Below are positions 36,009 through 63,666 of a stretch of DNA of 64,000 nucleotides, piece after piece (position 1 is the first letter of the stretch; each line of letters opens with the position of its first letter). The notes under the pieces were generated by a model that worked only from the letters and a program-made list of their open reading frames with translations, was not told where the DNA came from and made no database searches. The DNA is taken from the NCBI RefSeq assembly GCF_002005205.3, contig NZ_CP019702.2, positions 310,001-374,000 on the forward strand. The letters are read 5' to 3'. A program made the position numbers and the translations under genes. Source of the stretch: Rhizobium rhizogenes. Lineage in GTDB: Bacteria > Pseudomonadota > Alphaproteobacteria > Rhizobiales > Rhizobiaceae.

Positions 36009-36950
36009 TCAAGAGCCAGCCTCCGCCCTCCCATCCAGCAGCTCACCCGCCGCCTCACGAATAGCCTGCATCAGCAGCGACAGCGGCAGCGAGGGCTGCG
36101 TATCGGCCCTCACCGTCAGCCCCACCGGGCCGCTGGTATCGCCGGTTTCAACCGGCAGGATCGCCAGAATGCCGTCCGTCACATCCGCCGCCACCACGCC
36201 TTCGGAGATGATCCAGATCGCATCGCTGGTGCGCAGGAAGGCGCGGCCGAAGGCGTCGGACACGGTTTCGATACGGATCGGCAGGGCCGGCACGCCGTTG
36301 GCGATCAGGAACTGCTCGACGACAGGGCCAATCACCGATTGCCGCGTCGGCATCAGTACCGGATATTCATGCAGGTGATCGAACACCGAAAGGCCGGGTG
36401 ACAGCAGCGGGTGGCCGGCGCGCACCACGAAGCGCACCTTTTCAGAATAGAGATGCTCGAAGGAAAAGCCCGCCATTTTCTGCGGCGCGGCAAGACGCCC
36501 AACGACAAGATCGAGATCGCCGACACGCAGCTGCTCCAGAAGCACGGCATTTTCGCCCGTCACGATCTTCACCGGGCTGCCGGTCTTTTCCGCCAGAAAA
36601 CCGGCCATCGCCTGCGGCATGATCCGCACCGAAACCGTGGGCAGAGCGCCGACCCGCACCGGCGGACCGGCCCGCGCCGCCTCCTGCGAAACCGAATCGA
36701 CCGCCTGTCGCAGCGCCGTCATCGTCGCGCCGGCATGACGCAGAAAGACCTCGCCATAACGGCTGATGCGGATGCCGCGCCCTTCCCGGTCGAACAGCGA
36801 GACGCCAAGAATCTCTTCCAGCTCGCGGATGGTCTTCGTCACCGCCGGCTGGCTGACATGCAGGATTTCGGCGGCGCGGATGACGCTTTTCTGCCGCGCC
36901 ACCTCCACGAAAGTCTGCAGGTGGCGGAACTTGATACGCTGGTCGACCAT
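36009..36950 (-). CDS. pcaQ: LysR-family regulator PcaQ
   Basis: 313 residues. The LysR helix-turn-helix (IKFRHLQTFVEVARQKSVIR, AAEILHVSQPAVTKTIRELE) is at residues 5-50, followed by a standard effector domain. It diverges from pcaDCHGB, and a PcaQ-type operator is centred 15 bp from its start. In Agrobacterium and Sinorhizobium, PcaQ activates pcaDCHGB with beta-carboxy-cis,cis-muconate or carboxymuconolactone. A second matching operator at 58761 suggests a wider regulon here. Confidence 0.93.
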   Translation of the reverse strand: MVDQRIKFRHLQTFVEVARQKSVIRAAEILHVSQPAVTKTIRELEEILGVSLFDREGRGIRISRYGEVFLRHAGATMTALRQAVDSVSQEAARAGPPVRVGALPTVSVRIMPQAMAGFLAEKTGSPVKIVTGENAVLLEQLRVGDLDLVVGRLAAPQKMAGFSFEHLYSEKVRFVVRAGHPLLSPGLSVFDHLHEYPVLMPTRQSVIGPVVEQFLIANGVPALPIRIETVSDAFGRAFLRTSDAIWIISEGVVAADVTDGILAILPVETGDTSGPVGLTVRADTQPSLPLSLLMQAIREAAGELLDGRAEAGS

Positions 36951-36957
36951 CGCTTGT

Positions 36958-36973
36958 ATAATCCACAGGTTAT
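36958..36973. promoter_or_regulatory. PcaQ operator upstream of pcaDCHGB
   Basis: ATAATCCACAGGTTAT is an imperfect dyad that fits the ATAACC-N4-GGTTA(A/T) pattern recalled for PcaQ sites of rhizobia, with one mismatch in the left half. It lies in the 94-bp pcaQ-pcaD interval. Confidence 0.7.
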
Positions 36974-37044
36974 GATTTTCATCGATAATGTCATTTTACT
37001 TAACCGGAACCGGCTTGCAATATCCCGGGCAGGAGGAGCACATC

Positions 37045-37842
37045 ATGCATTTTCTGCGCTGCGGCGAGACCGTGATCCATTATCGCGTCAAGGGATTGGA
37101 CAGCGGCAAGCCGGTCATCGCCTTCATCAATTCGCTCGGCAGCGATTTCCGCATCTGGGATGCGGTCACCGAAGCGCTTGGCGATGATTATGCCTATGTC
37201 CTGCACGACAAGCGGGGCCACGGGCTTTCGGATGTCGGAGGCGCTCCCTATTCCATCGACGATCATGCCGGTGACCTGATCGCGCTTCTCGATCATCTCG
37301 GCGTCAAAGGCGCGATCATCTGGGGCCTGTCGGTCGGCGGACTGATTGCGCAGGGGCTTTATGCCTGCCGTCCCGATCTGGTGCGCGCACTCGTGCTCAG
37401 CAACACCGCCCACAGGATCGGCACGGCCGAAATGTGGAACGCCCGCATCGACAAGATCGCCGCAGACGGCCTCGTCTCGCTGGTCGATCCCGTCATGGAG
37501 CGCTGGTTCACGCCAGCGTTTCGCCAGCCTGACAATGCCGCCTATGCCGGTGCGCGCAACATGCTTTCGCAGCAGCCGGAGGCCGGCTACAGCGGCACCT
37601 GCGCCGCCATCCGCGATGCCGACTTTACCGATGAAGCGGGCCGCATCGCCGTGCCCACACTCTGCGTCGCGGGTGATCAGGACGGCTCGACACCGCCGGA
37701 ACTGGTGCGGTCGCTAGCCGATCTTATCCCGGCAAGCCGTTTCGTCACCATTGCCGGCTGCGGACACATCCCCTGCCTTGAACAGCCGCTTGCCTACACA
37801 CAGGCGGCCTCCATTTTTCTGAAGACCTTGCCGGAGCATTGA
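37045..37842 (+). CDS. pcaD: 3-oxoadipate enol-lactone hydrolase
   Basis: 265 residues from ATG 37045 (MHFLRCGETVIHYRVKG), preceded by AGGAGGAGCACATC. It is an alpha/beta-hydrolase with nucleophile elbow GLSVGG, an aspartate after strand 6 (CVAGDQDGSTP) and catalytic His in GCGHIPCLEQ. It converts 3-oxoadipate enol-lactone to 3-oxoadipate. It is the first gene of pcaDCHGB and pcaC starts three bases after its stop region. In some actinobacteria it is fused to PcaC; here the two are separate. Confidence 0.94.
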   Translation: MHFLRCGETVIHYRVKGLDSGKPVIAFINSLGSDFRIWDAVTEALGDDYAYVLHDKRGHGLSDVGGAPYSIDDHAGDLIALLDHLGVKGAIIWGLSVGGLIAQGLYACRPDLVRALVLSNTAHRIGTAEMWNARIDKIAADGLVSLVDPVMERWFTPAFRQPDNAAYAGARNMLSQQPEAGYSGTCAAIRDADFTDEAGRIAVPTLCVAGDQDGSTPPELVRSLADLIPASRFVTIAGCGHIPCLEQPLAYTQAASIFLKTLPEH

Positions 37843-37845
37843 CCG

Positions 37846-39017
<1,172 letters not shown>

Positions 39018-39019
39018 CC

Positions 39020-39640
39020 ATGGTTCAGCCGCTCAACTATTTCAAGGAAACCGCCTCGCAGACGGCCGGCCCCTATGTGCATATCGGCTGCACGCCCAAT
39101 TTCGTCGGCATCGAAGGGGTGTTCGAAAAGGATCTGGGTTCCGGTCCGCTTTATAACGACAAGGCGCGCGGTGAGCGCATCAGCGTGCGCGGCACGGTCT
39201 ATGACGGCGCGGGAATGCCGCTGAAGGACGCCCTGATCGAAATCTGGCAGGCGGATACGGACGGCTATTACAACAGCCCGAGCGAAACACGCGGCAAGGC
39301 CGATCCGAATTTCATCGGATGGGGCCGTTCCCCGGGCGACATGGATACGGGTGAATTCATCTTCGAAACCATCAAGCCGGGCACCGTGCCGTTCCGCGAT
39401 GGCCGGCCGATGGCGCCGCACATCACCTTCTGGATCGTGGCGCGCGGCATCAATATCGGCCTGCAGACCCGCATGTATTTCCCGGAAGAACAGGAGGCCA
39501 ATGCGGCCGACCCGGTTCTTGCCCGCGTCGAACAGAAGAGCCGCATCGCCACGCTTGTCGCTAAAAAAGAGGAAGGCAACGTCTATCGTTTCGATATCCG
39601 CCTTCAGGGCGAAGGCGAAACCGTGTTTTTCGATATCTGA
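39020..39640 (+). CDS. pcaG: Protocatechuate 3,4-dioxygenase alpha subunit
   Basis: 206 residues, beginning MVQPLNYFKETASQTAGPYVH. The intradiol dioxygenase core is present (IEIWQADTDGYYNSP, GEFIFETIKPGTVPFRDG, MAPHITFWIVARGIN), but the iron-ligand positions are degenerate (APHITFW where PcaH has AHIHFS), as expected for the non-iron alpha subunit. It shapes the active site in the heteromeric enzyme. Confidence 0.95.
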   Translation: MVQPLNYFKETASQTAGPYVHIGCTPNFVGIEGVFEKDLGSGPLYNDKARGERISVRGTVYDGAGMPLKDALIEIWQADTDGYYNSPSETRGKADPNFIGWGRSPGDMDTGEFIFETIKPGTVPFRDGRPMAPHITFWIVARGINIGLQTRMYFPEEQEANAADPVLARVEQKSRIATLVAKKEEGNVYRFDIRLQGEGETVFFDI

Positions 39641-39653
39641 GCGAGACGGAAGA

Positions 39654-40715
39654 ATGAGCCTTTCCCCTTTCGAACATCCGTTCCTGTCCGGCCTGTTCGG
39701 CGACAGCGAGATTGTCGAGCTGTTTTCAGCGAGAGCGGATATCGACGCCATGGTCCGTTTCGAGCGGGCATTGGCCGAGGCGGAAGCAGGGACAGGCCTC
39801 ATCCCGGAAGATGTGGCGGAAACGATCGTTTCGGGGCTTGCCGACTTCGCCGCCGATATGACGGCGCTTCGCCACGGCGTCGCAAAGGATGGCGTGGTGG
39901 TGCCGGAACTGGTGCGGCAGATGCGGGCGGCGGTCACCTCTCCAGCGGCGGAGAAGGTGCACTTCGGCGCCACCAGCCAGGATGTCATCGATACCAGCCT
40001 GATGCTGCGGTTGAAGGCGGCGGCGGAAATCATTGCCACCCGCCTCGGCCACCTCATTGATACGCTAGGAGACATCTCCTCTCGCGATGGCCATAATCCG
40101 TTGACGGGCTATACCCGCATGCAGGCCGCCATCGACATCACCGTCGCCGACCGGGCGGCGAGCTGGATCGCGCCGCTGGAGCGCCACCTGCTGCGGCTTG
40201 AAACCTTTTCCCGGAACGGCTTTGCCCTGCAATTCGGCGGCGCGGCCGGCACGCTGGAAAAGCTTGGCGACCATGCCGCTGCCGTGCGCACCGATCTTGC
40301 AAAGCGCCTTGGCCTTGCCGACAGGCCGCAATGGCAGAGCCAGCGCGACGGCATTGCCGAATTCGGCAATATTCTCTCCCTCATCACCGGCACGCTCGGC
40401 AAGTTCGGCCAGGATATCGCGCTGATGGCGGAACTCGGCGCCGAAATCCGTCTCTCCGGCGGCGGCGGCTCCTCGGCCATGCCGCACAAGCAGAATCCGG
40501 TGAATGCCGAAACGCTGGTGACACTGGCACGCTTCAATGCGGTGCAGATCTCCGCGCTGCACCAGTCGCTTGTCCATGAACAGGAAAGGTCGGGCGCGGG
40601 CTGGATGCTGGAATGGATGACGCTGCCGCAAATGGTGACGGCGACGGGCGCTTGCCTGCTGATCGCCGAACGCCTCGCCGGACAGATGGACAGGCTGGGC
40701 ACGGGCGAAGACTAG
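39654..40715 (+). CDS. pcaB: 3-carboxy-cis,cis-muconate cycloisomerase
   Basis: 353 residues from ATG 39654 (MSLSPFEHPFLSGLFGD); the open frame upstream lies within pcaG. It belongs to the fumarase/aspartase superfamily, with HFGATSQDVIDTSLML, the TRMQAAIDITVADRA region and the signature GGGGSSAMPHKQNPVNAE. It lactonises 3-carboxymuconate to gamma-carboxymuconolactone. The length is shorter than the roughly 450 residues of Pseudomonas PcaB but typical of rhizobial enzymes. It is the last gene of pcaDCHGB. Confidence 0.93.
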   Translation: MSLSPFEHPFLSGLFGDSEIVELFSARADIDAMVRFERALAEAEAGTGLIPEDVAETIVSGLADFAADMTALRHGVAKDGVVVPELVRQMRAAVTSPAAEKVHFGATSQDVIDTSLMLRLKAAAEIIATRLGHLIDTLGDISSRDGHNPLTGYTRMQAAIDITVADRAASWIAPLERHLLRLETFSRNGFALQFGGAAGTLEKLGDHAAAVRTDLAKRLGLADRPQWQSQRDGIAEFGNILSLITGTLGKFGQDIALMAELGAEIRLSGGGGSSAMPHKQNPVNAETLVTLARFNAVQISALHQSLVHEQERSGAGWMLEWMTLPQMVTATGACLLIAERLAGQMDRLGTGED

Positions 40716-41085
40716 CCGGCAAACCTGACGGTTTTCGCTTTGGAATCGGCATCCCGAACGCCTCCCGCCACCTCTTCGGCGGCGGCGTCGCCGTGCCTTG
40801 AAAACGCTTGCGCATCCGCGCATTAGCCATTGATAACACAAGACTTTCTCAAAAATGACAGATGCATAAAAAACAGCTTTTCAGCTGCTTTTTAACCGGC
40901 TGAAGCGCTTGACACAAAAATGAACTAACTGGTACAAACAATCTTGTCGACGCCATGCCGCGAGCGAGGAGAAAGAACCCTCGGGGCAAGGCCAGACGAA
41001 TGGAGGGCTTTGGCGCCGAAAGGTTTCCAGGGCGATGCGGACAAGGCGGAACGCCTGTCCGGACCCGCACGGGTTGGGAGGAAGA
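40716..41085. other. 370-bp intergenic region with hairpin and candidate promoter
   Basis: No gene is seen. An A/T-flanked hairpin at 40867-40893 follows pcaB. TTGACA at 40909-40914, with TACAAA 18 bases further, could be the promoter of the ABC importer operon. The GC-rich remainder up to the start at 41086 looks like untranslated leader. Confidence 0.5.
40867..40893. terminator. Bidirectional rho-independent-like terminator after pcaB
   Basis: AAAAAACAGCT-TTTC-AGCTGCTTTTT forms a stem with one bulged G, with A-run and T-run flanks on either side, so it can stop transcription in either direction. It lies 150 bp after pcaB. Confidence 0.6.
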
Positions 41086-42454: not shown

Positions 42455-43294
42455 ATGAAAACCACCAGCATGAAATTTTCACGTCGCACCCTCATGGCGC
42501 TTGCCGCGGCAGCGGTTGCGCTGCCCTTCGTCGCACCGGCAGACGCTTTCGCCGGCACGGTGGAGGAAGCCAAGGCCAAGGGCAAGGTCGTCATCGGCAT
42601 TCAGGGCGATAACTCGCCCTGGGGCTTCGTCAATTCGAGCGGCGTGCAGGACGGTCTCGATGCCGATATCGGCAAGGCCTTTGCCGACTATCTCGGCGTC
42701 AAGGTCGAGTTCGTGCCGCTCGCCGTGGCAAACCGTATCCCGGCGCTTTTGACCGGCAAGGTCGACGTGCTTTTTGCCACCATGGGCATGACGGCCGAAC
42801 GCGCCAAGACAATCCAGTATTCCAAGCCCTATGCCGGCAACGTCCTTTCCGTTTATGGCCCCAAGGACAAGAAGATCGCCGGCTATGACGATCTGACCGG
42901 CATCGCCGTCGGCGTGCCGAAGTCCAGCGCCATGGATACGGCGATCACCGCCGGCGCCGGTTCCAAGGCCAACATCCTGCGTTTCGATGATGACGCCGCC
43001 AATATTCAGGCGCTGATTTCCGGCCAGGTCGAAGTGGTCGGCGGCAACCAGTTTTATGGCGACCGCCTGAACACGGCGGCCGAAGGCAAATATGAGCCGA
43101 AATTCGATCTGACGACGCTTTATAACGGCGCCGGCACCCGTCCGGGTGAAAAGGACTGGAACGAGACCATCAACACCTTCCTCGACAAGATCAACTCGGA
43201 CGGCCAGCTGGCCAAAATCTATGACAAGTGGATGAAGCGCGAAGTGCCGGCCTTCCCGGACAGCCTGCCCGACATTCCGTTCACCGTGAAGTGA
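42455..43294 (+). CDS. Periplasmic binding protein, family 3, paralogue 1 (probable quinate/shikimate binding)
   Basis: 279 residues with a Tat-like signal (SRRTLMALAAAAVALPF) and AAGGAGGAGCAAAAG before the ATG. It has the family 3 fold with GKVVIGIQGDNSPWGF and the carboxylate-binding TAERAK. The aspartate that normally binds the alpha-amino group of amino acids (pattern VDAVVAD) appears as Asn198 in VEVVGGNQFYG. That fits a ligand with a carboxylate but no amino group. The gene is followed 35 bp later by a close paralogue. Confidence 0.85.
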   Translation: MKTTSMKFSRRTLMALAAAAVALPFVAPADAFAGTVEEAKAKGKVVIGIQGDNSPWGFVNSSGVQDGLDADIGKAFADYLGVKVEFVPLAVANRIPALLTGKVDVLFATMGMTAERAKTIQYSKPYAGNVLSVYGPKDKKIAGYDDLTGIAVGVPKSSAMDTAITAGAGSKANILRFDDDAANIQALISGQVEVVGGNQFYGDRLNTAAEGKYEPKFDLTTLYNGAGTRPGEKDWNETINTFLDKINSDGQLAKIYDKWMKREVPAFPDSLPDIPFTVK

Positions 43295-43329: not shown

Positions 43330-44166
43330 ATGGGAATTTTCAACAACCGGACAGGTTGGCGGGCAGCCCTTGCAGTCGGATTGGCAGCGCTGCTGCCAAT
43401 CCTGACACCCGCAGGCGCGGATGCCAGAACGCTGGAAGAGGCAAAATCCAGCGGCAAGGTGATTATCGGCATCCAGGGCGACAATGCGCCCTGGGGCTTC
43501 ATAAACTCCACCGGTGTCCAGGAGGGCTACGATGCCGATCTGGCAAGGGGGTTTGCGGATTATCTCGGAGTGAAGGTGGAGTTCGTGCCGCTTGCGGTCG
43601 CCAACCGCATTCCTTCGCTTCGCACCGGCAAGGTCGACGCCCTGTTCGCATCGATGGGAATGACGCCGGAACGCGCGAAAAATGTCCAGTATGCGCAGCC
43701 TTACGCGCATAATGTCATGTCGGTCTATGCCACCAGGGACAGGAAGATCGCCAATTTCGACGACCTGACGGGGATGACCGTCGGCGCGCCGAAATCCAGC
43801 CCGATGGATACGGCCCTGACCGCCGGTGCGGGCAGCAAGGCGAATATCCTTCGCTTCGATGACGACGCCGCCACCATTCAGGCGATCCTATCGGGCCAGA
43901 TCGAGGCGATCGGCGGCAACCAGTTCTACGGCGATCGTCTCGCGGCGGCCGGCGGCAAGGACTACGAGGTGAAGTTCGATCTCGTGACCCTTTACAACAG
44001 CGCCGCCACGCGTCCCGGCGAAAAGGACTGGAACGAAGCGCTGAACGCCTATCTGGACAAGATCAAGGCCAATGGCGACCTCGAAAAAGTCTATGCCAAA
44101 TGGATGAAACGCCCGGTGCCGCAATTCCCGGCCTCGCTTCCTGACATCCCCTACACCGTCAACTGA
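43330..44166 (+). CDS. Periplasmic binding protein, family 3, paralogue 2
   Basis: 278 residues, preceded by GGGAGGAGTAACCG. It follows the preceding gene almost codon by codon in the mature region ([38 protein letters not shown]), so it is a tandem duplicate. Asn197 replaces the usual ammonium-binding aspartate here too. The signal region differs ([24 protein letters not shown]). Two binding proteins sharing one translocator may divide related ligands such as quinate and shikimate. Confidence 0.85.
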
Positions 44167-58533: not shown

Positions 58534-58875
58534 CAAGACACCAAGTAAAGTTCAAAAATATGCTTCGAGAGACTACGAACAATCCCCTTCGAACTGGTTA
58601 AAGTTCCGGGTTTTCGCCTCCCTGCAAGCACTATTCCGCACCGGGTTTGCCCGAAGCTGTCTTCACCTCACGCCATCGCCGACGGTCGCCGGTTTGAGAA
58701 TCGCCGGGCGGCGCTTAATGTCCGATCCGGTATGGGGCAGATCGGAATGGCAGGGTATTGATAACCGTCAGGTTATTTATTACCCCCCTTATTTCATTTT
58801 ACTTTGGCCACGGCACTCATCAATCTGGCAGCCTGGATCGGTGGATGGGAGCCACGGATCAACTGGGAGGAAATC
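58534..58875. other. 342-bp promoter region of the LIV-type importer with PcaQ-type operator
   Basis: No gene is seen. The right third is AT-rich and contains the operator at 58761-58776. TTTCATTTTACTTTGG follows, and GGGAGGAAATC provides the ribosome-binding site of the binding-protein gene. Confidence 0.6.
58761..58776. promoter_or_regulatory. PcaQ operator upstream of LIV-type importer
   Basis: ATAACCGTCAGGTTAT is a perfect 6-bp dyad with 4-base spacer and matches the ATAACC-N4-GGTTA pattern. It is a better match than the site in front of pcaDCHGB. It lies about 100 bp upstream of the binding-protein ATG. Confidence 0.75.
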
Positions 58876-60048
58876 ATGAAACTACGGATCACCGCCGCAA
58901 TCGCGGCCATCTGCTTCAGTACTGCCGCTTATGCCGAGACGATCAAGGTGGGCGTGGTCGGTCCGTTCTCCGGCCCGTTTGCGCTGCAGGGCAAGAATTT
59001 CAAGGCCGGCATAGACGCCTGGTTCGCCCTTCACGGCAACAAGATCGGCGATGACACGGTCGAGGTCGTCTATCGCGATGTGCCGCAGGCCGATCCGGCG
59101 CAGTCCAAGGCGTTGGCGCAGGAGCTGGTGGTGAAGGAAGGCGTGCAATATCTCGCCGGCTTCTATTTCACCCCTGACGCCATGGCCGTCACGCCTTTGC
59201 TGAAGCAGGGCAATGTGCCGATGGTCATCATGAATGCCGCCACCTCGGCCATCGTGACGAAAAGCCCCTATGTGGTGCGCACCTCTTTCACCACCTGGCA
59301 GACCTCCACCCCCATCGCCAAGGTGGCCTTTGACGGCGGCGTGAAGAAGGTCATTTCGCTGGTCAGCGATTACGGCCCGGGCGTCGATGCCGAAAACGCA
59401 TTCAAGGCGGCCTTTACCGCCGCCGGCGGCGAGGTGGTGGAAACCATCCGCATGCCGCTCTCCACCAATGATTTCAGCCCGATCATGCAGCGCGTGAAGG
59501 ATTCCGGCGCGCAGGGCGTCTTCGCCTTCCTGCCGTCGGGCCCCACCACGCTCGGCTTCGTCAAGGCCTTCAATGATAACGGCCTGAAATCCGCAGGCGT
59601 CAAGCTCTTCGCACCGGGTGATCTCACCCAGGAATCCGACCTGCCGGCGCTTGGCGAGGCTGCACTCGGCATGCAGACGACCTTCCATTACGCCGTCTCG
59701 CATGATTCCCCTGAGAACAAGACCTTCGTGGAGGCCGCCGCCAAGGCGATCGGCAATCCCAAGGAACTGTCCTTCCCCGCAGTCGGCGCCTTTGACGGCA
59801 TGTATGTCATCAGCAAGATGATCGAGGCGACCGGCGGCAAACAGGATGCGGAAAAGGCGGTGGACGCGGTGAAGGGTCTTTCCTGGACAAGCCCGCGCGG
59901 CCCTGTCAGCATCGATCCGGAAAGCCGCCACATCACGCAGAACATCTATCTGCGCGAAGTGGCCAAGGCCGATGACGGCAGCTATTACAACAAGGAAGTC
60001 CAGACCTTCGAAAAACAGGGCGATCCGGGCCTCGCCGCCGCGAAATAA
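58876..60048 (+). CDS. pcaM: LIV-type ABC substrate-binding protein, probable protocatechuate-binding PcaM
   Basis: 390 residues from ATG 58876, with GGGAGGAAATC upstream. A signal peptide (MKLRITAAIAAICFSTAAYA) and a type I binding fold are present (VGVVGPFSGPFALQGKNF, ALAQELVVKEGVQYLAGFYFTP). The family usually binds branched-chain amino acids, but aromatic-acid binders also occur in it. The PcaQ operator in front of it and the known PcaQ-controlled PcaMNVWX importer of Sinorhizobium point to protocatechuate. The symbol is inferred from this, not from a search. Confidence 0.8.
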   Translation: MKLRITAAIAAICFSTAAYAETIKVGVVGPFSGPFALQGKNFKAGIDAWFALHGNKIGDDTVEVVYRDVPQADPAQSKALAQELVVKEGVQYLAGFYFTPDAMAVTPLLKQGNVPMVIMNAATSAIVTKSPYVVRTSFTTWQTSTPIAKVAFDGGVKKVISLVSDYGPGVDAENAFKAAFTAAGGEVVETIRMPLSTNDFSPIMQRVKDSGAQGVFAFLPSGPTTLGFVKAFNDNGLKSAGVKLFAPGDLTQESDLPALGEAALGMQTTFHYAVSHDSPENKTFVEAAAKAIGNPKELSFPAVGAFDGMYVISKMIEATGGKQDAEKAVDAVKGLSWTSPRGPVSIDPESRHITQNIYLREVAKADDGSYYNKEVQTFEKQGDPGLAAAK

Positions 60049-60097
60049 CCGGCAACACGGGCCTCGCCGCCACAATGGCGGCCATTCTTGAAACGGT

Positions 60098-60120
60098 CGA
60101 ACCGCCCCTATGGCGGTTCG
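60098..60120 (+). terminator. Intercistronic hairpin between pcaM and pcaN
   Basis: CGAACCGCC (60098-60106) and GGCGGTTCG (60112-60120) form a perfect stem around CCTAT. Such hairpins after a binding-protein gene often allow more binding protein than permease to be made. No U-run follows, so partial readthrough is expected. Confidence 0.55.
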
Positions 60121-60166
60121 GTTCCGGCCCGGACGGGCGTTGCAGCACCGGGAGGAGCTTTTCAAC

Positions 60167-61030
60167 ATGCAAACGGTCTTCAGCATCCTCATCGATGCGC
60201 TTGCCTATGGCATGGTCCTGTTCATCATTTCCATCGGCCTTTCGGTGACGATGGGGCTGATGCGGGTGGTCAATCTGGCGCATGGCGCCTTCGCCATGAT
60301 CGGCGGTTATCTCGCCTCCTATGCCGCGCATGGCCTCGGCCTCGGTTACGCCGTGGCGATCCTCGTCGCCATCGTCGGCACCATCGTCATCGCCATTCCG
60401 CTTGAGCGTTTCCTCTATCGCCGCATCTATGGCGCGCCGGAGCTGACGCAGGTGCTGATGACCATCGGCATTACCTTCTGCATTATCGGCATCGCCAATT
60501 TCGTCTTCGGGCCGACGCTGAAGACCATTCCGCTGCCGCAGCAGCTGGCCGGCCCCACCGATCTCGGCTTCCGCACCATCGCCACCCACCGCATCTTCGC
60601 CATTGCCTGCGGTCTGGCCGTGGCCGGCGCATTGTGGTTCACCTTCGAAAAGACCGCCTTCGGCATCAAGCTGCGCGCTGCTGTCGATAATGCCGCCATG
60701 GCCGCGGCGCTCGGCGTGCGCACCGAAGTCATCTACGCCGTCAGCTTTGCCATCGCCGTTGGCCTTGCCGCCATGGGCGGCGTCATCGGCGCGGAATTGC
60801 TGCCGGTCGAACCCTATTATGCGCTGCGTTACATGGTCACCTTCCTCGTGGTGGTCTCGGTCGGCGGCGCGGGCTCCATTCCGGGCGCGCTGATCGCCTG
60901 CCTGCTGCTCGGCGCCATCGATACGACCGGGCGGTATCTCGCGCCCGAATATGGCGAATTCTTCTTTTATCTAGCGGTCATCGTGATCATCACCTTGTTC
61001 CCGCGCGGCCTTCTTGGAAGGGCGAAATGA
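60167..61030 (+). CDS. pcaN: LIV-type ABC permease, probable PcaN
   Basis: 287 residues from ATG 60167 (MQTVFSILIDALAYGMVLF), with GGGAGGAGCTTTTCAAC upstream. It has about eight membrane helices in the LivH arrangement, including LMRVVNLAHGAFAMIGGYLA and the docking region KTAFGIKLRAAVDNAAMAAAL followed by GVRTEVIYAVSFAIAVG. It is followed by the LivM-type permease after one base. The substrate assignment follows that of the binding protein. Confidence 0.85.
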   Translation: MQTVFSILIDALAYGMVLFIISIGLSVTMGLMRVVNLAHGAFAMIGGYLASYAAHGLGLGYAVAILVAIVGTIVIAIPLERFLYRRIYGAPELTQVLMTIGITFCIIGIANFVFGPTLKTIPLPQQLAGPTDLGFRTIATHRIFAIACGLAVAGALWFTFEKTAFGIKLRAAVDNAAMAAALGVRTEVIYAVSFAIAVGLAAMGGVIGAELLPVEPYYALRYMVTFLVVVSVGGAGSIPGALIACLLLGAIDTTGRYLAPEYGEFFFYLAVIVIITLFPRGLLGRAK

Positions 61031-61031
61031 G

Positions 61032-62039
61032 ATGGCGGTGCTCATGAACGACGTGACTGAAACGGCAGACACCCCGAAGACACGTTCGCCGCTGCGCGCT
61101 GTCGCCGGGCCGCTCATCATCATCGCCGCCGCCATCCTCGGTTACTTTCTGTTTCCAGATAATCTGGCGCTTCTGACCCGCATCATCGCCATTGCGCTGC
61201 TGGTGCTGTCGATTGATCTCGTCACCGGTTATTGCGGCGTCGCCACGCTTGGCCATGCGGCGCTCTTCGGCGCCGGCGCCTATGCCGCCGGCATCGCTGC
61301 CGCCCATTTCGAGATCACCGATCCGCTGCTCATGACCGCCATCGGCGCCGCAGCCGGCGGCGTCGCAGGGCTGCTCTCCGGCACGGTTCTGCTGCGTGCC
61401 CACGGCTTGCCGCAGCTGGTGCTTTCCATCGCCGTCATCCATCTGTTTCACGAGGCGGCCAACAAGGCGTCGAACTGGACGGGCGGCAGCGACGGCCTTG
61501 CCGGCGTCTCGCCGGATGCCCTGTTCGGCACCTTCGAATTCGATCTTTTCGGCCGCACCGCTTATATCTATGGCGTCTGTCTGCTGCTCCTCGTTTTCGT
61601 CGCCCTCAGGGTCATCGTCCATTCACCCTTCGGCATGCTGTGTCGCGGCGTCAAGCAGGACAGCACCCGCATTCAGGCCATGGGCGGCTCCGTCAACGGC
61701 ACGATTTTGAAGATGTTCGTCATATCAGGCGTCGTCGCCGGCATTGGCGGTGCGCTCAACGCCATTTCAACCCAGGTCGTCGGCCTCGACAGCCTCAGCT
61801 TCACGCTTTCGGCCGAAGCGCTGGTCATGCTGGTGCTCGGCGGCGCGGGTTCGCTTTATGGTGCGCTGATCGGCACCGTCACCTTCATGTGGTTCGAAGA
61901 TGTCGTTTCGGCCGCCAATCCGTTCCATTGGCTGACGATCGTCGGCCTGCTGCTGATTGCCGTCGTGCTCTTTGCACCACGCGGGCTTTACGGCGCGGGT
62001 GAGCAGATCATTGCGCGCCTGCGGGGAGATCGCAAATGA
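61032..62039 (+). CDS. pcaV: LIV-type ABC permease, probable PcaV
   Basis: 335 residues from ATG 61032; an ATG at 61044 would be four residues shorter. It has a LivM-type membrane fold with SIDLVTGYCGVATLGHAALF, the docking loop GMLCRGVKQDSTRIQAMGGSVN and LVLGGAGSLYGALIGT. A charged N-terminal leader of about 20 residues precedes the first helix. The stop overlaps the next ATPase start by four bases. Confidence 0.85.
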   Translation: MAVLMNDVTETADTPKTRSPLRAVAGPLIIIAAAILGYFLFPDNLALLTRIIAIALLVLSIDLVTGYCGVATLGHAALFGAGAYAAGIAAAHFEITDPLLMTAIGAAAGGVAGLLSGTVLLRAHGLPQLVLSIAVIHLFHEAANKASNWTGGSDGLAGVSPDALFGTFEFDLFGRTAYIYGVCLLLLVFVALRVIVHSPFGMLCRGVKQDSTRIQAMGGSVNGTILKMFVISGVVAGIGGALNAISTQVVGLDSLSFTLSAEALVMLVLGGAGSLYGALIGTVTFMWFEDVVSAANPFHWLTIVGLLLIAVVLFAPRGLYGAGEQIIARLRGDRK

Positions 62040-62800
62040 GCGCCATTTTTGAAGTATCCGGCCTGCAGAAGAATTTCGGTGGCCTCGTCGTCACCAACAA
62101 TGTCTCGCTGTCGCTATCGCCGGGAGACCGCACGGTGCTGATCGGCCCCAATGGCGCCGGCAAGACGACCTTCGTCAATCTCGTCACCGGCAATATAAAA
62201 CCCTCTTCAGGCACGGTGCGCATCGCCGGCGAGGATGTGACAGGCCTCAGCGCCAGCCAGCGGGTGAAACGCGGCCTCGTCCGCTCGTTTCAGGTCACAC
62301 GGCTGTTTCAGGATATGACGCCCGAGGAACATGTAGCGCTCGCCATTCTCCAGCGGGAGGGAAAGACCGGCCGGATTTTCGGCCGTTACCGCGCCATGCC
62401 CGCGGTGACGAGCGAAGCACGCGACATTCTCGGCACGCTCGGCCTTCTGGCGCTTGCCGAAACAAGGGTGCGTGAAATCGCCTATGGCCAGCAGCGGCTG
62501 ATCGAGATCGCGCTTGCCATGGCGCTTCGCCCGAAAATCCTGCTGCTCGACGAACCGGCCGCCGGCGTGCCTTCAACGGAAACCGCGCGCATCGAACAGG
62601 CGCTCGACCGGCTGCCCGCCGACCTCGCGATTCTGATGATCGAGCACGACATGGATCTGGTTTTCCGCTTCGCCAAACGTGTGGTGGTGCTCGCCGCAGG
62701 TGCGGTCATCTTCGACGGTTCGCCTGAAGACGTCACCAGCAATGCGGAAGTCCGCCAAGCCTATCTGGGAAGTTACGCCGATGCCCGCAGCGCCGCTTGA
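62036..62800 (+). CDS. pcaW: LIV-type ABC ATP-binding protein, LivG class, probable PcaW
   Basis: 254 residues. Walker A GPNGAGKTT is intact, followed by the LivG-type region SASQRVKRGLVRSFQVTRLF. The signature is degenerate (EIAYGQQRLIEIALAMAL), as usual for LivG. Walker B ILLLDEPAAGVPS and the H-loop MIEHDMDLVFRFAKRVVVL follow. The start overlaps the permease stop, and the last 20 bases overlap the start of the LivF-type gene. Confidence 0.88.
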   Translation: MSAIFEVSGLQKNFGGLVVTNNVSLSLSPGDRTVLIGPNGAGKTTFVNLVTGNIKPSSGTVRIAGEDVTGLSASQRVKRGLVRSFQVTRLFQDMTPEEHVALAILQREGKTGRIFGRYRAMPAVTSEARDILGTLGLLALAETRVREIAYGQQRLIEIALAMALRPKILLLDEPAAGVPSTETARIEQALDRLPADLAILMIEHDMDLVFRFAKRVVVLAAGAVIFDGSPEDVTSNAEVRQAYLGSYADARSAA

Positions 62801-63497
62801 AATCGTCAACCTCACCGCCGGTTATGGCCCCACCCGCGTCATCGAGGGCCTGTCGCTTTCGGTGCCATCAGGTTCGCGTTTTGCCGTTCTCGGCCGCAAC
62901 GGCGTCGGCAAGACCAGCCTCTTCGCCACGCTGGCCGGCCAGACGAAACGTTTCGCCGGCGATATCCGCATCGGCGGGCAGGACATCGCCGCCTTGCCGA
63001 GTGCCGCCCGTGCCAAAGCCGGCCTCGGTTACGTGCCGCAGACGCGGGATGTTTTCCCGACGCTGACCGTCGAGGAGAACCTGTTCGTCGGCCTCAAGGG
63101 TCGACCGAAATCCGCGATCGAAGAAGCCTATACGCTGTTTCCGCGCCTGAAGGAGCGCCGCCGCAATCTCGGCTCGCAACTTTCCGGCGGCGAACAGCAG
63201 ATGCTCTCCACCGCCCGCACCATTCTCGGCCAGCCGCGCGTGCTGCTGCTCGACGAACCGCTCGAAGGCCTCGCCCCCGTCATCTGCGAGGAGCTGATGG
63301 CCGCCTTTTCCAAACTCGCCCAATCCGGTGAAATGACCATTCTTCTTGTGGAACAGCGCATCCAGATGGCCATTGACTTCGCCGACCACGCCATCATCAT
63401 GGAACGCGGCCGCATCGTCTGGGAAGGGCCGTCCAGCGAGCTTGCGGAGAACCCGGATATTATCGATACGCATCTTGGGGTTGGCGGACTTCACTGA
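62781..63497 (+). CDS. pcaX: LIV-type ABC ATP-binding protein, LivF class, probable PcaX
   Basis: 238 residues from ATG 62781 (MPAAPLEIVNLTAGYGPTRV), overlapping the LivG-type gene by 20 bp. Walker A GRNGVGKTS, the LivF-type GLGYVPQTRDVFPTLTVEENL, the signature LSGGEQQML, Walker B LLLDEPLEGLAPV and the H-loop LVEQRIQMAIDFAD are present. With the LivG-type subunit it energises the importer. It ends ten bases before the repeat at 63507. Confidence 0.88.
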   Translation: MPAAPLEIVNLTAGYGPTRVIEGLSLSVPSGSRFAVLGRNGVGKTSLFATLAGQTKRFAGDIRIGGQDIAALPSAARAKAGLGYVPQTRDVFPTLTVEENLFVGLKGRPKSAIEEAYTLFPRLKERRRNLGSQLSGGEQQMLSTARTILGQPRVLLLDEPLEGLAPVICEELMAAFSKLAQSGEMTILLVEQRIQMAIDFADHAIIMERGRIVWEGPSSELAENPDIIDTHLGVGGLH

Positions 63498-63506
63498 GTC
63501 CACCCA

Positions 63507-63623
63507 CCCTCATTCCTGTGCCTGTCACAGGAATCCAGCCAGCCCAAGTCCTTGGGCTAGAACGAGTCTCTCGCCGCGCAGACGCGCGTCGGCTGAATCC
63601 CTGTGACAAGCACAGGGATGAGG
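63507..63623. repeat. 117-bp palindromic intergenic repeat, copy D
   Basis: Left arm hairpin TTCCTGTG-CCTGT-CACAGGAA, inner hairpin AGCCCAAG-TCC-TTGGGCT, right arm CCCTGTG-ACAAG-CACAGGG. It is the same length as copies A-C and closest to copy B. It follows the last gene of the importer operon. Confidence 0.85.
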
Positions 63624-63666
63624 TGAGTGTGTGGTGACCGTCGGTGGCTTGGTCATAAGGCGTGGG

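Follow-up and report, generated by a model that had tools for sequence, protein, structure and literature searches.

A five-gene operon at 58876-63497 of a 64,000-nucleotide stretch of Rhizobium rhizogenes DNA (the window; contig NZ_CP019702.2) carries the family-level annotation of a branched-chain amino acid importer. We hold with high confidence that its genes are instead orthologous to PcaMNVWX and represent that system in Agrobacterium, encoding an ATP-driven transporter that would take up protocatechuate and probably related hydroxybenzoates as well. Very probably it is switched on by PcaQ, the regulator of the degradation genes, which would act via an operator at 58761-58776 and a second element at 58794-58804, in the layout found at pcaD. 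By its sequence it is of a kind already published; what is added here is the two-part promoter, a clean split of pcaM loci into PcaQ-type and pobA-linked ones, and a prediction of importers of the TRAP and major facilitator superfamily (MFS) types. The features of the operon are as follows, with identities to the Sinorhizobium meliloti pSymB locus (L082; loci and genomes carry our own L and G numbers).

58761..58776, + strand: predicted PcaQ operator, perfect dyad ATAACCGTCAGGTTAT (pattern search; counterpart of the S. meliloti pcaM site ATAACCGGGGGATTAT)
58794..58804, + strand: second promoter element TCATTTTACTT, 17 bases after the operator (two-part search and upstream comparisons)
58821..58826, + strand: candidate -10 CAATCT (operator offset equal to that of CAATAT at 37018-37023 before pcaD)
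58876..60048, + strand: pcaM, periplasmic binding protein (Pfam Peripla_BP_6; 86.0%)
60164..61030, + strand: pcaN, permease (Pfam BPD_transp_2; 84.7%)
61032..62039, + strand: pcaV, permease (Pfam BPD_transp_2; 71.3%)
62036..62800, + strand: pcaW, ATPase (Pfam ABC_tran; 73.6%)
62790..63497, + strand: pcaX, ATPase (Pfam ABC_tran; 72.8%)

Orthology of the importer and its binding pocket

The initial annotation had described a complete five-gene importer and proposed comparing it with PcaMNVWX; the Pfam domains agree with the former (one Peripla_BP_6, two BPD_transp_2 and two ABC_tran), and the comparison found all five proteins collinear with S. meliloti pSymB pcaMNVWX, aligned over 98-100% of their length and in the same gene order of binding protein, permease, permease, ATPase, ATPase. 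The window PcaM is 96-99% identical to nine Agrobacterium/Rhizobium records (L002-L010), by which the window probably belongs to Agrobacterium. The genome encodes no other PcaM; the closest further match is at 28%.

An ordinary branched-chain amino acid importer preceded by an incidental dyad would fit the Pfam branched-chain permease domains and the name carried by the annotated S. meliloti orthologues, but no NCBIfam LIV model reaches its cut-off for any of the five proteins (bits/cut-off: LivK 66.4/477, LivH 65.8/379, LivM 60.8/366, LivG 200.7/362, LivF 157.9/441). The NCBIfam urea models also stay below theirs; UrtE comes closest, with the last ATPase (234.0/285.8 bits). In the alignment with E. 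coli LivK and LivJ, PcaM retains Thr102 and Tyr150 and has Thr for Ser79, the carboxylate side of the pocket being mostly kept; Glu226 is replaced by Gly, Trp/Tyr18 by Gln and Tyr202 by Ser. Glycine stands in the window PcaM and in all eight relatives aligned at the position of Glu226, which in LivJ/LivK contacts the amino group of the ligand, and the protein is thus not of the LivJ/LivK type at this site. Because the glutamate and the aromatic wall residues are lost, an amino-acid ligand is unlikely, and as the promoter described below is common only with pcaD, we regard a branched-chain amino acid importer as extremely improbable.

Two further structures were observed along the operon. Strong hairpins are possible in the pcaM-pcaN gap (60049-60163), where the segment 60046-60166 folds at -53.8 kcal/mol (z -2.26; 5 of 200 shuffles as good), and these possibly limit expression of the genes 3' of the binding protein. 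A long inverted repeat, read by eye, lies 3' of pcaX at 63512-63640 and resembles an interspersed palindromic element.

A two-part promoter common to pcaD and pcaM

The degradation genes and their regulator occupy the following positions.

36009..36950, - strand: pcaQ, LysR-type activator (NCBIfam TIGR02424, above cut-off)
36958..36973, + strand: predicted PcaQ operator of pcaQ/pcaD, ATAATCCACAGGTTAT, one mismatch (pattern search)
36991..37001, + strand: TCATTTTACTT box of the pcaD promoter, N17 after the operator (two-part pattern search)
37045..40715, + strand: pcaDCHGB operon (tblastn against the pca operon of L082, 61-78%)

PcaQ passes the equivalog model TIGR02424 (460.5 bits; cut-off 303.8), and its gene (start at 36950) diverges from pcaD (37045) with the operator between them, 7 bases from the pcaQ start codon. 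The perfect dyad ATAACCGTCAGGTTAT, reported in the initial annotation as lying about 100 bp before the importer, is present exactly as written, and 99 bases separate it from the likely pcaM start ATG at 58876; the weaker copy placed between pcaQ and pcaD was likewise recovered. In pattern searches of the 5,482,241-base genome, controlled with the reversed pattern, the pcaM dyad was the single exact match to ATAACC-N4-GGTTAT, and one mismatch admitted five places: the pcaM dyad, the pcaQ-pcaD copy, L083, L084 and L086. Allowing two mismatches gave 82 places in the genome, and the reversed control gave 58, so a lone copy of that quality carries little meaning, while within the window the strand-wise count at this threshold, in which the palindrome is scored on both strands, was 11 matches against 2.81 expected (reached by 0 of 100 shuffles).

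The 11-base TCATTTTACTT stands exactly 17 bases past both the pcaD and the pcaM dyad, and a genome search for operator-N17-TCATTTTACTT allowing three mismatches returned the pcaD and pcaM sites and no other (reversed control, 0). By this pattern comparison operator and box together make up an extended signature, operator-N17-TCATTTTAC, common to pcaD and pcaM, which is new here; no description of the second box was found in the literature searched. The three other one-mismatch dyad copies were rejected as PcaQ targets, for L083 and L084 lie inside coding frames and all three, including L086 between open reading frames (ORFs) that by inspection are regulator-like and dehydrogenase-like, lack the two-part pattern at up to three mismatches. 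A two-mismatch copy, AAAACCGTCAGGTTT, was also observed directly past the pcaB stop (40721-40735, - strand), with a core identical to that of the pcaM dyad; it is absent from the genome matches of the two-part pattern.

LysR-type activators have an activation subsite at about -40 to -30. For S. meliloti pcaMNVWX, the consulted part of PMC5002191 quotes the site ATAACCGGGGGATTAT from mutational work, at a 65.5-base position. This sequence was located at L082:13800, upstream of pcaM, with its centre ~133 bases before the start codon, from which we infer that the 65.5 bases are counted from the transcription start; if so, the box spans about -40 to -30, and the element at 58794-58804 is likely an activation subsite or -35 region. 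A sigma-70 consensus scan returned no promoter-like + strand site before pcaM, and the candidate -10 columns are conserved in the pcaD set and weak in the pcaM set. In the proposed mechanism, PcaQ would sit on the operator 58761-58776 and, when holding a pathway intermediate, would contact 58794-58804 and turn on pcaM transcription, in the layout seen at pcaD. The co-inducers reported for PcaQ are ring-cleavage products (PMC12288460, in the portion consulted), so a single positive feedback loop would link import to cleavage, and it would open only when the ring is being cleaved.

The signature in relatives

We compared 81 pcaM loci, comprising the best 80 of 300 relatives and L082. Scored over 21 informative positions, 62 of their upstream regions reach 16 or higher, as does 1 of 2430 simple shuffles, and all 19 pcaD upstream regions score 19-20; because upstream regions had been inspected before the consensus was drawn up, these counts are descriptive and constitute no independent test. 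The remaining 19 pcaM loci comprise five with the signature at an 18-base gap and 14 without it, and these 14 are exactly the loci in which a co-directional pobA ends 68-136 bp upstream (L015, L016, L021, L023, L024, L026, L032, L044, L046, L051, L060, L065, L080 and L081). In them pcaM is probably on the pobA transcript, the importer having apparently moved into the pobA unit. Among the 49 loci with a co-directional pobA ahead of pcaM, no PcaQ promoter was found before pobA (best scores 8-14 of 21, the shuffle range).

In 39 Agrobacterium genomes searched with up to one mismatch, the signature was found in 36, at 61 places (control, 0). PcaM is encoded in 30 of the 39, and the three signature-free genomes are among the nine without it. 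The signature stands before pcaM in 25 of the 30 (the others are G002, G017, G018, G020 and G030). Thirty of the 61 places were inspected: 23 lie between pcaQ and pcaD and seven before pcaM. Two places on one contig and the same strand, 11.2-21.8 kb apart, occur in 23 of the 39 genomes (the pcaM member was assigned by coordinates in all 23 and the pcaQ-pcaD member inspected in 12), and in G028 two places on one contig are ~167 kb apart on opposite strands. Linkage of pcaM and pcaD within 11-22 kb is therefore usual in Agrobacterium. The initial annotation had taken the operon for a remote importer of the PcaQ regulon, 20 kb from the pathway genes. The assignment to the regulon is supported by the collinear orthology, the PcaQ equivalog and a two-part promoter common with pcaD and conserved in relatives; pcaB and pcaM lie ~18 kb apart, and the remoteness was overstated.

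Over a wider range, the exact signature was found at 55 places in 44 of 247 genomes of the family and at 36 places in 28 of 397 genomes of the order (controls, 0), both sets being even samples of larger groups, with 83 distinct places in all. Apart from G156:C21:34314, which was left out, all were assigned: 58 of the 82 lie before a pca operon (55 before pcaD and three before pcaC-first operons, L137, L157 and L192), 12 before pcaM (two by coordinates alone, one of them this window), nine before TRAP genes, two before MFS genes and one before another Peripla_BP_6 gene, and none of the 82 precedes an unrelated gene. In L173 and L174 a leader of >300 bases separates the signature from pcaD. The promoters of pcaD and pcaM were the source of the pattern, so that places before these operons were expected and the other 12 were not. 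The exact pattern is insensitive and would miss S. meliloti pcaD, whose operator ends in TTAA. LysR-type operators resemble each other, and the dyad might accordingly serve another regulator of this type with a similar site, leaving the operon outside the PcaQ regulon; this we consider very improbable, because two elements with exact spacing are held in common with the pcaQ-pcaD promoter and because pca operons and pcaM follow so many of the assigned places.

The 12 unexpected places precede genes of other importer families. For both MFS proteins (L152 and L162) the top-scoring NCBIfam model is that of the aromatic acid/H+ symport MFS family (266.9 and 283.4 bits, below the cut-off of 418.55). 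The TRAP cases are DctP in L158 and L199 and DctQ in L182, L185, L186, L188, L204, L205 and L208, with a DctM behind DctQ confirmed by Pfam in L204, and L193 encodes a different Peripla_BP_6 binding protein divergent from pcaQ. All 12 cases are in genomes without a close PcaM: G264, G129 and G057 gave remote matches only (best E 7e-12 to 3e-26, 26-28% identity) in a search in which G115 was positive at 81%, and the other nine genomes gave no match at 1e-30. All 12 genomes carry a PcaQ relative at 1e-60 or better. From the promoter, these TRAP, MFS and other ABC genes are predicted to encode importers under PcaQ control. Few independent events are represented, since a single genus (g114) accounts for seven of the nine TRAP cases. 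No description of TRAP importers under PcaQ was found in the literature searched, but signature-tagged TRAP importers fit the TRAP importer beside the pca cluster of a Roseobacter that is reported to be up-regulated on 4-hydroxybenzoate (PMC12442348), for which the part of the text consulted reports no PcaQ promoter.

On balance we favour, with some reserve, the view that PcaQ has a dedicated promoter in operator-N17-TCATTTTAC, one that follows a function and not a protein and serves protocatechuate cleavage and import across the order, with import carried out by unrelated or distant transporters (PcaM-type ABC, TRAP, aromatic-acid MFS and another ABC binding protein). If this is true, the signature names the protocatechuate importer wherever it is present in a genome of the order. 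The two-part promoter offers a specific though not sensitive means of finding protocatechuate importers of the TRAP and MFS families where PcaM homology fails, with a bearing on lignin-aromatic uptake and rhizosphere fitness.

Ligand, neighbourhood and known systems

The nearest solved relatives of PcaM are 4f06 and 4evs, followed by 4eyg and 4ey3. A predicted PcaM model (the best of five, mean pLDDT 84.9, the other four 45-80; built from 12 close sequences) superposes on 4evs and 4f06 at 1.6-1.7 Å over 367 residues, with 62-63% sequence identity. By their titles, 4evs is RPA0985 with 4-hydroxybenzoate, 4eyg holds vanillic acid and 4ey3 p-hydroxybenzoic acid, and by analogy PcaM may carry hydroxybenzoates besides protocatechuate. 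In the part of PMC3223731 consulted, RPA0985 is stabilised by 4-hydroxybenzoate with a thermal shift of 29.5 °C.

Some findings weigh against a PcaQ-controlled protocatechuate importer. The relative that has been measured binds 4-hydroxybenzoate, and no protocatechuate affinity for it was found in the portions of the literature consulted; furthermore, 14 of the 81 close pcaM loci, and five of the 30 PcaM-bearing Agrobacterium genomes at up to one mismatch, lack the signature, exceptions which mean that PcaQ control of the importer is not universal. The ligands of the solved relatives (4-hydroxybenzoate or vanillate), the thermal shift of RPA0985 and the 14 signature-free pcaM loci placed 68-136 bp behind pobA would also suit an importer that is broad or mainly for 4-hydroxybenzoate, with protocatechuate secondary and PcaQ merely coupling it to the common downstream pathway. 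This is a reading we think rather unlikely, as a mutant in the orthologous RL3906 of R. leguminosarum grew more poorly on protocatechuate while its growth on 4-hydroxybenzoate was unchanged (PMC4495286, from the sections consulted).

Between pcaB and pcaM, the segment 41080-49025 holds a polar-amino-acid-type ABC importer with tandem binding proteins (42455-43294 and 43330-44166), followed by a shikimate dehydrogenase, a type II dehydroquinate dehydratase, a TetR-like ORF (assigned by inspection, no NCBIfam hit) and a QuiC/HPPD-like fusion (below both cut-offs). It is a candidate for quinate/shikimate uptake and funnelling into protocatechuate, and the pattern search found no two-part PcaQ signature before these genes in the window.

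The A. fabrum pca cluster is without pcaK according to the consulted part of a 2025 paper (PMC12288460), and no description of the present importer in Agrobacterium was found in the literature searched. Its recognition sets right a family-level annotation that misleads, in a genus of plant-associated bacteria that is widely studied, and extends the protocatechuate regulon of Agrobacterium to import.

Among known systems, S. meliloti 1021 PcaMNVWX (SMb20568, which is pcaM, and SMb20787-20784; pSymB) offers five collinear orthologues at 71-86% identity and, as here, a PcaQ operator upstream, a TCATTTT box at N17 and a replicon in common with pcaQ-pcaDCHGB. It differs in that its pcaM operator has one mismatch where that of the window is a perfect dyad, and in a pcaB-pcaM distance of ~7.7 kb against ~18 kb; of the window genes between pcaB and pcaM, the fetched pSymB stretch matches only QuiC, which lies beyond pcaQ there, and ATPases at 32-34%. 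R. leguminosarum 3841 has an orthologous importer, RL3906-RL3910, in which RL3906 is 88% identical to SMb20568, is induced by protocatechuate and has a predicted PcaQ-like site (PMC4495286, sections consulted); unlike in the window, the importer there is a chromosomal neighbour of pobA, and a plasmid carries the pca genes. The binding protein has relatives in Rhodopseudomonas palustris RPA0985 and RPB_2270 (4evs, 4f06), the former solved with 4-hydroxybenzoate, whereas E. coli LivJ/LivK-LivHMGF agrees in importer class and gene complement and differs at the pocket, where its Glu226, Trp/Tyr18 and Tyr202 correspond to Gly, Gln and Ser of the window PcaM.

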